DNA of 64,000 nucleotides from Prochlorococcus sp. AG-409-M05 (lineage in GTDB: Bacteria > Cyanobacteriota > Cyanobacteriia > PCC-6307 > Cyanobiaceae). The DNA is taken from positions 124,001-188,000 of the forward strand of contig QCKJ01000003.1 of NCBI GenBank assembly GCA_003215435.1, given 5' to 3'. A model generated the notes under the pieces. The model had not been told where the DNA came from and did no database searches. It saw nothing but the letters and a program-made list of their open reading frames with translations. The stretch's first letter is position 1. Every line of letters begins with the position of its first letter. A program made the position numbers and the translations under genes. This document shows positions 47,275-52,874 of the stretch, one piece after another.

Positions 47275-48648
47275 ATGGAAAACAAAAATCCAAGACAAGA
47301 ATCTAATAAAAGCATACGAAAGCTCCTACAAAAAAATTGGCTAAGAGTTGTTTTAGCTCTTGTTTTAACAGGCTTAGGAGCTGCACTAACTGGCGTTTTA
47401 TTCAAAGCTGGTGTTCATTTACTTGATGAATGGCGCCTAACACTTTTAAAACAATTACCTGCATGGTTTGTCTTACCAGCACTTGGAGGTCTTGGTGGTT
47501 TTATATCAGCCACATTAATTTCTAAACTTTCACCATCTGCAGGAGGTTCAGGGGTTAGTCACATTATGGCTTTTCTCCGACATCGGACTGTGCCAATGGG
47601 ACTAAGGGTTGGTCTTGTAAAGCTTGCTGCAGGAATACTTGCTATTGGTAGCGGATTTCCACTTGGGCCAGAAGGACCATCCGTTCAAATGGGAGGATCA
47701 GTTGCTTGGAAAATGGCACAATGGCTAAAAGCTCCTATAGCCTTTCGAAGAGTCATTGTCGCAGCAGGAGGGGGTGCGGGAATAGCAGCAATTTTTAGCG
47801 CTCCAATAGGAGGCTTTATCTACGCAATTGAAGAACTTCTCAATTCAGCCAGACCAGTCGTACTGTTATTAGTAGTCGTTACTACCTTTTGGGCAGATAC
47901 TTGGGCAGATGTTCTACAAAATATAGGTCTTAATCAGGGTGCTGGAGGATACGATACAAACTTAGGGTTTCAACTTGAGCGTGAATACACCCCATTAGTT
48001 CACTTTCTTCCGATTGATCTTGGATACCTAATTGTATTAGGAATAGTTGTTGGTTTTTTAGCAGAGTTGTATTGCCGATATGTTTTAACAATGCAGAAAA
48101 AAGGCAACAAGTGGTTTGGGGACAAACTAGTTTTACGTATGGTAATTAGTGGTGTATTACTTGGGTGCACATACGCTTGTCTGCCAAAAGAGTTTCACCA
48201 TTTAGGTGAGCTACAAAAAGTAATAGCAGGGGGAGATGCAAGTATTTCTTTAGCAATTTGCACTTTTATTGTCCTATTCTTTAGCACTGGACTTGCAGCA
48301 GCTTCTGGCGCTCCTGGTGGATTATTTTACCCAATGTTAACTCTAGGGGGTTCAATAGGTTTAGCTTGTGGAATATGGGTTGAAGCATTAACAGGGCACG
48401 TACCAAGTACATATATTTTTGCTGGAATGGGGGCATTTATTTCTGCCTGTTCAAGGACTCCTATAACAGCAATGTTTCTAGCATTTGCACTTACCAAAAA
48501 TCTTCTTATCCTAAAACCAATACTTATTTCTTGTATTGCAAGTTTTCTAATTGCTCGATTATTCAATGAACATTCTATCTATGAACGTCAAATAGATATT
48601 GAGTACAATGATGGAAAACATAGAAAAGCTTTAATACACAATAAATAA
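47275..48648 (+). CDS. ClC-type chloride channel / H+ antiporter
   Basis: A 457-residue ClC protein with the selectivity-filter sequences GSGFPLGPEGPSVQ (containing the gating Glu, about residue 133) and AIFSAPIGGFIYAIEE (the second, proton-path Glu). The EriC-like GREGP is GPEGP here. Presence of both glutamates favours a Cl-/H+ exchanger rather than a channel. It begins six bases after acnB and is probably co-transcribed with it. Other anions such as fluoride are less likely given the filter. Confidence 0.9.
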   Translation: MENKNPRQESNKSIRKLLQKNWLRVVLALVLTGLGAALTGVLFKAGVHLLDEWRLTLLKQLPAWFVLPALGGLGGFISATLISKLSPSAGGSGVSHIMAFLRHRTVPMGLRVGLVKLAAGILAIGSGFPLGPEGPSVQMGGSVAWKMAQWLKAPIAFRRVIVAAGGGAGIAAIFSAPIGGFIYAIEELLNSARPVVLLLVVVTTFWADTWADVLQNIGLNQGAGGYDTNLGFQLEREYTPLVHFLPIDLGYLIVLGIVVGFLAELYCRYVLTMQKKGNKWFGDKLVLRMVISGVLLGCTYACLPKEFHHLGELQKVIAGGDASISLAICTFIVLFFSTGLAAASGAPGGLFYPMLTLGGSIGLACGIWVEALTGHVPSTYIFAGMGAFISACSRTPITAMFLAFALTKNLLILKPILISCIASFLIARLFNEHSIYERQIDIEYNDGKHRKALIHNK

Positions 48649-48709: not shown

Positions 48710-48713
48710 GGAG
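48710..48713 (+). promoter_or_regulatory. Shine-Dalgarno-like GGAG before a CTG start
   Basis: GGAG ends eight bases before CTG 48722, which opens the only frame matching the radical SAM protein. No ATG, GTG or TTG occurs in that frame until 48968, so this site is the main evidence for CTG initiation. Confidence 0.55.
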
Positions 48714-48721
48714 ATTAAACA

Positions 48722-50347
48722 CTGAAGAACGAAACTCTACTTTTTAATCCAAGCCTCCCTAAACAAGAAGCACTAAAAACTATTCTTGCATTTCCAAGTA
48801 CATACTCAGTTGGTATTACTAGTCTCGGATATCAACTAATATGGGCAACTCTTGCAAAAAGAAAAGATGTCGATGTAAGGCGAGTCTTCACTGATCTACA
48901 AGAAACCATCCCAAGAAGATGCGATCTTTTCGGGATCTCTCTAAGTTGGGAACTCGATGGACCAGTATTGCTAGAGCTATTAGAACAGCAAAGGATACCT
49001 ATATGGAGTCATGAAAGAAAGAATAATGACCCAATAGTGTTCGGTGGAGGTGCAGTTCTAACGGCAAACCCGGAACCATTCGCACCGTTTCTAGATGTGG
49101 TCTTAATGGGAGATGGTGAGGAAGTACTGCCCAAGTTTATCGAAATTATTCAAGAAACAAAAAATGAAGAAAAGTATTTCCGGCTCAAAGAGCTAGCAAA
49201 AATTCCTGGTATTTATATTCCATCATTTTATAAACCAATATATAACTCAGATGGACAATTACTCTCTATCAAGACAATTGAAAATGACATACCCAAGTCA
49301 GTTAGCAAACAAACCTGGAATGGCAACCTAACTCACTCTCAAGTCATTACACCAGATGCTGTATGGCCAAATATCCACATGGTTGAAGTAGTTCGAAGCT
49401 GTCCCGAAATGTGCCGTTTTTGCCTAGCAAGTTATTTAACACTTCCCTTTAGATACCCGTCAGTAACCAACGAATTAATACCTGCAATAGAAAAAGGGTT
49501 GAAAGTCACAAAAAGATTAGGTCTATTAGGTGCATCTGTAACTCAACACCCTGAATTTCCAGATTTAATTCAATGGCTTAATGAAGATTGCTTGCAGGAA
49601 ATTCGCTTGAGCATAAGTTCTGTAAGAGCATCAACCGTCAATCCAGAACTCACAAAGGTTCTAAAAAAACATGGGAGTAAGTCAATCACAATCGCGCTCG
49701 AAAGCGGAAGCGAGCGGCTCCGAAATGTAATCAACAAAAAACTATCTACTGAAGAAATTTTTACAGCAGCAAAAAATGCCAAAGAAGGCGGCTTAAAGCA
49801 CCTAAAGCTATATGGAATGGTTGGAATACCAACAGAAAGCGAAGAGGATGTTGAAGAAACAGCTGACCTTCTTTTAAAAATCAAACAAAAAACACCAGGT
49901 CTAAGGCTCACACTTGGGGTAAGTACGTTTATACCAAAAGCACAAACTCCCTTCCAATGGAATGGTGTACAAACAGACGCTCAAAAACGGCTCAAAATTT
50001 TGAACAAGCGTCTAAAACCAAAAGGAATTGAACTTAGAGCAGAAAGTTATCGGTTGAGCCTTATACAAGCATTGATATCCCGCAGCGATCGTCGCTTAGC
50101 AAGAGTCATTGCACTGCTTCGCGGAACAGAAAACAGCTTAGGAGAATGGAAGAAAGCTTACAAAACCATAAGTGAAGAAGAGAACACATCTCTAACGACT
50201 CTGAAGAGTACCCTTGCACCACTGCCAAGATGGGAAGAAGTTATTCATGAGAATTGGCAAGCAGAAAAAGTTTTACCCTGGACTCATCTGCAAGGTCCTG
50301 TAGATGAAAGCTTACTAATAAAACATCAAAAAAGATCTATAACCTGA
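48722..50347 (+). CDS. B12-binding-domain-like radical SAM protein, probable CTG start
   Basis: A radical SAM enzyme of about 541 residues. The 4Fe-4S motif is CPEMCRFC (CxxxCxxC, about residue 226) after VEVVRS. The N-terminus resembles the B12-binding-like domain of this family: ILAFPSTYSVGITSLGYQ, DLFGISLSWELDG and VFGGGAVLTANPEP. This part is in frame from 48722 but contains no ATG, GTG or TTG; a start at TTG 48968 would delete 82 family-like residues. A CTG at 48722 with GGAG upstream is the best start. An in-frame TAA sits at 48716. Substrate unknown; family members are often annotated only as Fe-S oxidoreductases. Confidence 0.85.
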   Translation: MKNETLLFNPSLPKQEALKTILAFPSTYSVGITSLGYQLIWATLAKRKDVDVRRVFTDLQETIPRRCDLFGISLSWELDGPVLLELLEQQRIPIWSHERKNNDPIVFGGGAVLTANPEPFAPFLDVVLMGDGEEVLPKFIEIIQETKNEEKYFRLKELAKIPGIYIPSFYKPIYNSDGQLLSIKTIENDIPKSVSKQTWNGNLTHSQVITPDAVWPNIHMVEVVRSCPEMCRFCLASYLTLPFRYPSVTNELIPAIEKGLKVTKRLGLLGASVTQHPEFPDLIQWLNEDCLQEIRLSISSVRASTVNPELTKVLKKHGSKSITIALESGSERLRNVINKKLSTEEIFTAAKNAKEGGLKHLKLYGMVGIPTESEEDVEETADLLLKIKQKTPGLRLTLGVSTFIPKAQTPFQWNGVQTDAQKRLKILNKRLKPKGIELRAESYRLSLIQALISRSDRRLARVIALLRGTENSLGEWKKAYKTISEEENTSLTTLKSTLAPLPRWEEVIHENWQAEKVLPWTHLQGPVDESLLIKHQKRSIT

Positions 50348-51689: not shown

Positions 51690-51785
51690 ACAATTCAGTT
51701 TAAAGCCTATTTTTTCCCAAATGAAGTAGATGAAAAGACATCTAAAATAGGTATCAAATAATGTTTAATATCAAAAACATATCTT

Positions 51786-51790
51786 AAAGG
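51786..51790 (+). promoter_or_regulatory. Shine-Dalgarno-like AAAGG before a CTG start
   Basis: AAAGG ends seven bases before CTG 51798, which begins the frame encoding the FAD-binding N-terminus of the oxidase. No conventional start codon lies in the frame between the upstream stop at 51759 and 51882. Confidence 0.5.
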
Positions 51791-51797
51791 TTCTCAA

Positions 51798-52874
51798 CTG
51801 ACACAAAAAATTGCTGTTATAGGGGCAGGAGTAATTGGATGCACTACTGCTTGGCAACTAGGGTGCCACGGACAAGAGGTAATGATTTTCGATATAGGTC
51901 TTGATAAGCAAATAAATAGAATAGGTAATCTCAACGGATCATCAGCATCTCTAGGTGTTCTCATGGGAAACACTTTTAAGAGAAATAAAGGAAGGGCCTG
52001 GGCACTAAGAAAAAGAAGTATGGAAATCTGGCCAGAGTGGATAAAGCAATTATCAACAAAAGAGAGTCCTTTAGAAATCAAGACACCACTAATTGCATTA
52101 GCAAGATCACAAGAAGAAGGAAAGTCAATGGAGAGACTGTGTAATGAAAGGAAAGATTGTGGGCTTGAAATAATACGAAGGAACGCGAAATTAAACTTAG
52201 TTGAGAAATGGCCAAGAACAGAATTTGGAGGACTAGTTTCACACAATGATGGAAGAATTGATCCTATTCAACTACAACAATCTATTAGGTTAGACATGAA
52301 AGATTTAAGAATAAGTGAAATAGCAGAAAATATAATCTCAATAAAAAGAGGGTTGTCAAAAAATCATTTCCGTTGGATACTTGAAGTAAAGGATGAAAAG
52401 CAATATTACTTCGACACAATAATAATTTGCTCAGCACTTAATAGTGAAATATTACTTAAGCAGATAGGATACGAAATTCAATTAGAACCTGTTCTAGGAC
52501 AAGTAATAGATCTTGAAATACAAACTGAGGGTTTTCAATGGTCAGACTGGCCAGCTGTACTTCAATTTAATGAAGTTAATTTAATCCCATACGCATCCAA
52601 TAGGTTATTAATGGGTGCAACACTTGAACGAGGAAAAACCGCATCAAAAGATGCATTAAAAGAAATGCACTACCTAAAAGGTAATTGCCCAATTTGGTTA
52701 CAACGAGCTATCATAAAAAATAAATGGTATGGAATACGAAGCAGACCAATAAATAGAAGTGCACCTATTCTAGAGACTTTAGAAAATGGATTAATAGTTG
52801 CCACTGGACATTATCGAAATGGAATATTATTAGCTCCTGCAACTGCTGAATGGGTGGCAAATCAAATTGATTAG
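51798..52874 (+). CDS. FAD-dependent amine/amino-acid oxidase (ThiO/DadA-like), probable CTG start
   Basis: A D-amino-acid-oxidase-family protein of 358 residues if it begins at CTG 51798. The N-terminal KIAVIGAGVIGCTTAWQLG is the Rossmann GxGxxG motif and lies before the first ATG (51882), so a start there would leave a non-functional protein. The C-terminal IVATGHYRNGILLAPATAEWVA closely parallels ThiO at 15897-17006. It may be glycine oxidase-like or use another amine. It stands alone between the O-antigen-ligase-like gene (divergent) and dnaK (convergent). Low GC and many AT-rich codons. Confidence 0.78.
   Translation: MTQKIAVIGAGVIGCTTAWQLGCHGQEVMIFDIGLDKQINRIGNLNGSSASLGVLMGNTFKRNKGRAWALRKRSMEIWPEWIKQLSTKESPLEIKTPLIALARSQEEGKSMERLCNERKDCGLEIIRRNAKLNLVEKWPRTEFGGLVSHNDGRIDPIQLQQSIRLDMKDLRISEIAENIISIKRGLSKNHFRWILEVKDEKQYYFDTIIICSALNSEILLKQIGYEIQLEPVLGQVIDLEIQTEGFQWSDWPAVLQFNEVNLIPYASNRLLMGATLERGKTASKDALKEMHYLKGNCPIWLQRAIIKNKWYGIRSRPINRSAPILETLENGLIVATGHYRNGILLAPATAEWVANQID

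Follow-up and report, generated by a model that had tools for sequence, protein, structure and literature searches.

The radical SAM protein gene described here raises a simple question: where does translation begin when the first codons of a conserved reading frame hold no ATG, GTG or TTG? The gene lies on the forward strand of the window, a stretch of 64,000 nucleotides from a picocyanobacterial draft genome (label G000; 1.69 Mb, 32 contigs, 88% complete). According to the list of open reading frames, its stop-to-stop frame covers 48719-50347 (+ strand), and the first in-frame ATG, GTG or TTG is a TTG at 48968..48970, 82 codons after the CTG at 48722. The earlier note had proposed this CTG as the start, and its description of the frame proved accurate: the 82 codons 5' of the TTG are free of stops and of ordinary starts, the frame from the CTG is open to 50347, an in-frame TAA (48716..48718, two codons 5' of the CTG) shuts it upstream, and the 2 quoted peptides, ILAFPSTYSVGITSLGYQ and LFGISLSWELDG, are present in the translation. 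Starting at TTG 48968 would indeed cost 82 residues, including the beginning of the N-terminal domain.

Read from the CTG, the gene (48722..50347, + strand) encodes 541 amino acids plus a stop. In profile searches, the product passed the gathering scores of Radical_SAM (PF04055; 77.4 bits vs a cut-off of 29.5) and of Radical_SAM_N2 (PF19864; 102 bits vs 29, residues 62-167), and the translation contains CPEMCRFC (49400..49423, + strand), a CxxxCxxC motif corresponding to the radical SAM [4Fe-4S] ligand pattern. The curated cut-off of TIGR03960, a B12-binding radical SAM protein, was not reached (292.9 vs 462.3 bits); the protein is a relative of that family and not a member by the cut-off test. 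The B12-binding domain PF02310 gave a weak match below its gathering score (21.7 vs 32.1 bits), leaving cobalamin binding plausible only. A PDB search returned one weak match and no close protein of known function.

The claim that the 82 codons are protein-like was borne out by homologues in 180 of the 201 family genomes, most of which align over the full length, beginning at residue 1 or 2, with an identity of about 60-68%. The matches come with synonymous variation; the stretch is real coding sequence and not a product of chance. Genera g17 and g56 and genome G003, several complete genomes among them, gave no match to the radical SAM gene or to its 900-residue paralogue.

We asked which codon occupies the proposed start in relatives. 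Homologues were taken from the 201 family genomes, from named species genomes and from the fetched 5' regions of 114 further copies; after removal of identical contexts, 159 picocyanobacterial sequences (relatives of Prochlorococcus and Synechococcus) were aligned with the query at their 5' ends. Results clearly showed that the codon aligned with CTG 48722..48724 (+ strand) is CTG in 157 of these non-identical sequences, closed single-contig genomes included, TTG in one (L128) and ATG in one (L217), counts that come from related genomes and are not independent events. The earlier note had reasoned that an ATG in relatives would indicate a sequencing error in the window; the opposite was seen, and the two sequences without CTG have another start codon instead. 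Within a gene, a leucine codon is expected to drift among the six leucine codons. This is what happens at the conserved leucines of codons 6, 7, 18, 22 and others, unlike at the start position, where CTA, CTC, CTT and TTA never occur (n=159) and only start codons are found. On the FastTree topology the start codon required 2 parsimony changes, compared to 24-49 at 11 conserved leucine columns of the same alignment. Even in the low-GC subset, where CTG makes up 5.3% of leucine codons, the position is CTG in 42 of 42 sequences. Clade-wide conservation therefore strongly supports CTG 48722 as the initiation codon, in agreement with the earlier proposal.

The alignment also located the beginning of the coding sequence. 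Codons -1 to -12 contain no conserved residue and many stops, and protein conservation runs from the second codon on (E4, L6, L7, F8, P10), with synonymous variation. The upstream in-frame stop stands at a median of 12 codons from the CTG, and in 125/159 sequences no in-frame ATG, GTG or TTG lies between the two. We thus observed directly the identity of the codon, its position, its conservation and the limit of coding. Two features of the surroundings of the CTG also fit a start. The fourth base is A in 143/159 sequences, vs 22% A at the first positions of codons 3-60, and bacterial start codons are known to be followed by an excess of A at this site (PMC5850271). The mean folding energy predicted for windows of 40 nt reaches its weakest value with the CTG at the centre (-4.8 kcal/mol, vs -5.4 to -13.9 kcal/mol elsewhere). 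The Shine-Dalgarno argument of the earlier note held only in part: the window does have a GGAG (48710..48713, + strand) ending 8 nt before CTG 48722, and a subset of marine Synechococcus carries a clear Shine-Dalgarno motif 6-7 nt before the CTG, but across the clade the signal is weak, with a core motif between -16 and -3 in 22/159 sequences vs about 10 in shuffled sequence. In some high-GC genomes (L138, L166, L202 and others) an inverted repeat, GTGAGACGC...GCGTCTCAC, ends directly before the CTG; it is possibly a terminator or a regulatory hairpin.

Taken together, we consider it highly probable that the gene truly starts at CTG 48722, the only plausible codon, that this codon is used weakly by fMet-tRNA, and that it was fixed long ago and has been kept by purifying selection, CTG serving as a rare but established fourth start codon. 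The ordinary fMet-tRNA would pair with the second and third bases of CUG, with weak pairing at the first position, so that formyl-methionine would be the first residue of the protein. Structures of CUG complexes formed with a variant initiator tRNA show that, in the P site, pairing at the first position is weak (PMC11497404). Inefficient initiation may in turn keep the enzyme at a low level; low efficiency is expected at CUG, as with the conserved AUU/AUA starts of staphylococci, which give about 10% of AUG in cvfC1, ccpN and citZ reporters in poor medium (PMC13009471). In one study a reporter with a CUG start was expressed in neither E. coli nor tobacco chloroplasts (PMC9845219), which, set against the CTG reading, suggests that context or organism matters. 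The use of fMet-tRNA, the low output and any regulatory meaning of the codon are what we infer.

Is the initiator tRNA of the clade unusual? It was sought in 61 genomes, 12 of which, mostly incomplete, gave no match. In all 49 genomes with a match the anticodon stem-loop region of tRNA-fMet is identical and has the three ordinary G-C pairs. A relaxed initiator tRNA was therefore rejected as the cause, and because the region is identical in every copy found, nothing obvious suggests that the clade depends on an altered one.

The fixation of the CTG probably predates the radiation of the picocyanobacterial family, and purifying selection would have kept it since then, as with other weak starts in the clade. 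In outgroup cyanobacteria the homologues begin a few codons 5' of the aligned position, three to five in most cases, and their start codon is most often GTG but can also be TTG or ATG. Weak starts are therefore usual for this gene, and within the sampled genomes the CTG is peculiar to the picocyanobacterial family. Two control genes starting with TTG in G010 remain TTG in most relatives, with an occasional GTG or ATG. Start-codon identity is thus conserved for weak starts in general, the radical SAM CTG lying at the strict end of the range. As these TTG controls are kept to a similar degree, conservation of the CTG by itself would point to no special regulatory role, nor would it need special regulation, and we do not claim a special upkeep of CTG compared to other weak starts.

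The explanation that survives best beside direct initiation concerns coupling to upstream translation. A ribosome terminating at a TGA that overlaps the CTG (C-TGA-A), after a chloride channel gene or a short frame, could reinitiate there, which would explain why a weak codon suffices. In the window a gene named by sequence resemblance as a ClC-type chloride channel (47275..48648, + strand) ends 73 nt before CTG 48722, and a short frame, ATG GAG ATT AAA CAC TGA, ends at the TGA overlapping the CTG. CTGA is found at the start site in 141/159 sequences, the ClC gene lies upstream in 86/159, and its own TGA overlaps the start as CTGA in 30/159. However, ClC was not detected upstream in the other 73 (mostly about 400 nt examined), all but one of which keep the CTG; 16 CTG genomes have CTGG or CTGC, hence no TGA; the upstream peptides in other frames have nothing in common across the clade; and the A at the fourth site is a general feature of start codons (PMC5850271). 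We therefore regard reinitiation as an unlikely account of the weak codon. ClC coupling may help initiation in some lineages, but as the reason for the CTG it was rejected, since the CTG persists where ClC was not found upstream.

It is very improbable that translation truly starts at an ordinary codon farther downstream and that the codons before it are untranslated or vestigial. In 68/159 sequences the first ordinary start is a GTG at codon 21, as this reading would have it, but the clade shares no downstream start position, the first ordinary start of the window comes only at codon 83, and the protein encoded by codons 4-32 is strongly conserved while the codons vary synonymously, the conserved residues including F24, P25, Y28, G31 and I32 besides E4, L6, L7, F8 and P10.

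A programmed frameshift, in which translation starts at an ATG of another frame, such as ATG 48708, and shifts into the radical SAM frame near the CTG, is scarcely credible. The frame of ATG 48708 does run to the TGA at 48723 in the window, and in 63/159 sequences this frame contains an ATG within 120 nt. On the contrary, neither a conserved upstream peptide nor a recurring slippery sequence nor a fixed ATG position was found, the TGA that the shift needs is missing in the 16 CTG genomes mentioned above, and a frameshift site would not predict that CTG is replaced solely by TTG or ATG. As neither the TGA nor the upstream peptides are conserved, the frameshift reading of the TGA overlap was rejected.

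Lastly, a sequencing or assembly error hiding an ATG or an indel has a negligible probability even in a draft of 32 contigs at 88% completeness, as independent genomes carry the same CTG (156 other non-identical sequences, closed single-contig genomes included), and on this comparison of sequences it is excluded.

We also looked for other non-standard starts that could have been missed. In the window, comparison of 34 genes with homologues in the fetched DNA flagged the radical SAM gene and a gene for a DAO-family FAD-dependent oxidoreductase (PF01266), the next gene, whose same feature had been overlooked in the earlier note. From homologue alignment, its probable start is CTG 51798 (51798..52874 within the frame 51762-52874, + strand); the first ordinary start, ATG 51882, would delete the VIGAGVIGC (GxGxxG) dinucleotide-binding motif. 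The aligned codon is CTG in 19, TTG in 2 and GTG in 1 of 36 homologues, the others starting elsewhere, so this start appears less fixed than that of the radical SAM gene.

Beyond the window, a pilot scan of 400 kb of each of two same-genus genomes (G010 and G064; 305 ortholog pairs, homology sought 5' of every ordinary start) recovered the radical SAM gene and pointed to 3 others, a chorismate-lyase-like gene, an Rce1-like gene and recF. For the chorismate-lyase-like gene (PF01947; the window genome's own copy is G000:C3:109458-110024, - strand; relatives' loci L323-L352 and L443-L462), the automatically picked start is CTG in 36/50, with ATG or GTG in several others. This CTG is the start in most Prochlorococcus and marine Synechococcus, often behind a clear Shine-Dalgarno motif, and a motif of this kind accompanies 30 of the 36. 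The gene encoding the Rce1-like membrane protease (PF02517; loci L353-L382) has CTG in most relatives and TTG in three. For recF (loci L383-L412 and L463-L482, the window genome's own copy being L476), the start is ATT in 33, ATC in 14 and ATG in 3 of the 50 loci, never ATA, and 43/50 have no ordinary in-frame start upstream. A CbiG/CbiH-like gene with a CTC common to G010 and G064 was dropped, as the CTC is not conserved in relatives.

How does this compare with known systems? In E. coli, infC starts with AUU. As in the proposed reading of the radical SAM gene, selection there maintains a weak start, which the ordinary initiator tRNA reads. The codon and the gene differ, and picocyanobacterial infC has an ATG start in 29/30 control loci; it was therefore rejected as a second non-standard start, and the regulatory circuit is not the same. 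The non-canonical start of E. coli infC and its IF3 autoregulation are discussed in a study showing by ribosome profiling that Staphylococcus infC (AUA), cvfC1 (AUU) and ccpN (AUA) have conserved non-canonical starts (PMC13009471). These resemble the picocyanobacterial CTG in being conserved across related bacteria; they differ in using AUU/AUA and not CUG, in concerning few genes, in staphylococci and relatives, and in being supported by extended Shine-Dalgarno motifs, absent from most of the radical SAM gene copies in picocyanobacteria. Annotated bacterial genes starting with CUG, in the figures quoted in PMC9845219, amount to 20 ORFs in 69 model genomes (0.024%); as that source quotes them, they share the codon but are scattered, whereas the radical SAM CTG is fixed across a family in which other genes behave alike. 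In Nostoc sp. PCC 7120, the portion of the proteogenomic report considered here gives ATA/ATT starts in eight revised genes and ATA in two novel ones (PMC8557916). There too a cyanobacterium initiates at non-standard codons, and peptides support it, but the case concerns one filamentous strain and ATA/ATT codons, and that portion describes no clade-wide conserved CTG. No earlier description of a CTG start conserved clade-wide in picocyanobacteria turned up in a search of the open-licence literature.

In conclusion, CTG initiation in bacteria was already known as rare and scattered, and what is new, relative to the literature searched, is its fixation across a family, together with further genes. 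Gene callers restricted to ATG, GTG and TTG likely mis-start the genes for the radical SAM protein, the DAO-family oxidoreductase, the chorismate-lyase-like protein, the Rce1-like protease and RecF; their protein annotations are therefore probably truncated or wrong at the start. We lean, by a small degree, towards a broader reading, that in picocyanobacteria CUG (AUU/AUC for recF) is an established, heritable start in roughly at least 1% of genes, missed by gene callers and in some cases regulatory through initiation fidelity. If true, the set of start codons in use would be wider throughout the clade. Bacterial CTG starts are generally dismissed as annotation noise; a family-wide CTG start in very abundant marine phototrophs, sampled here among tiny marine and freshwater cyanobacteria and bearing independent marks of a start codon, is strong comparative evidence of long-lasting bacterial CUG initiation, and the use and upkeep of a weak start codon become directly testable in cultured Prochlorococcus and Synechococcus.
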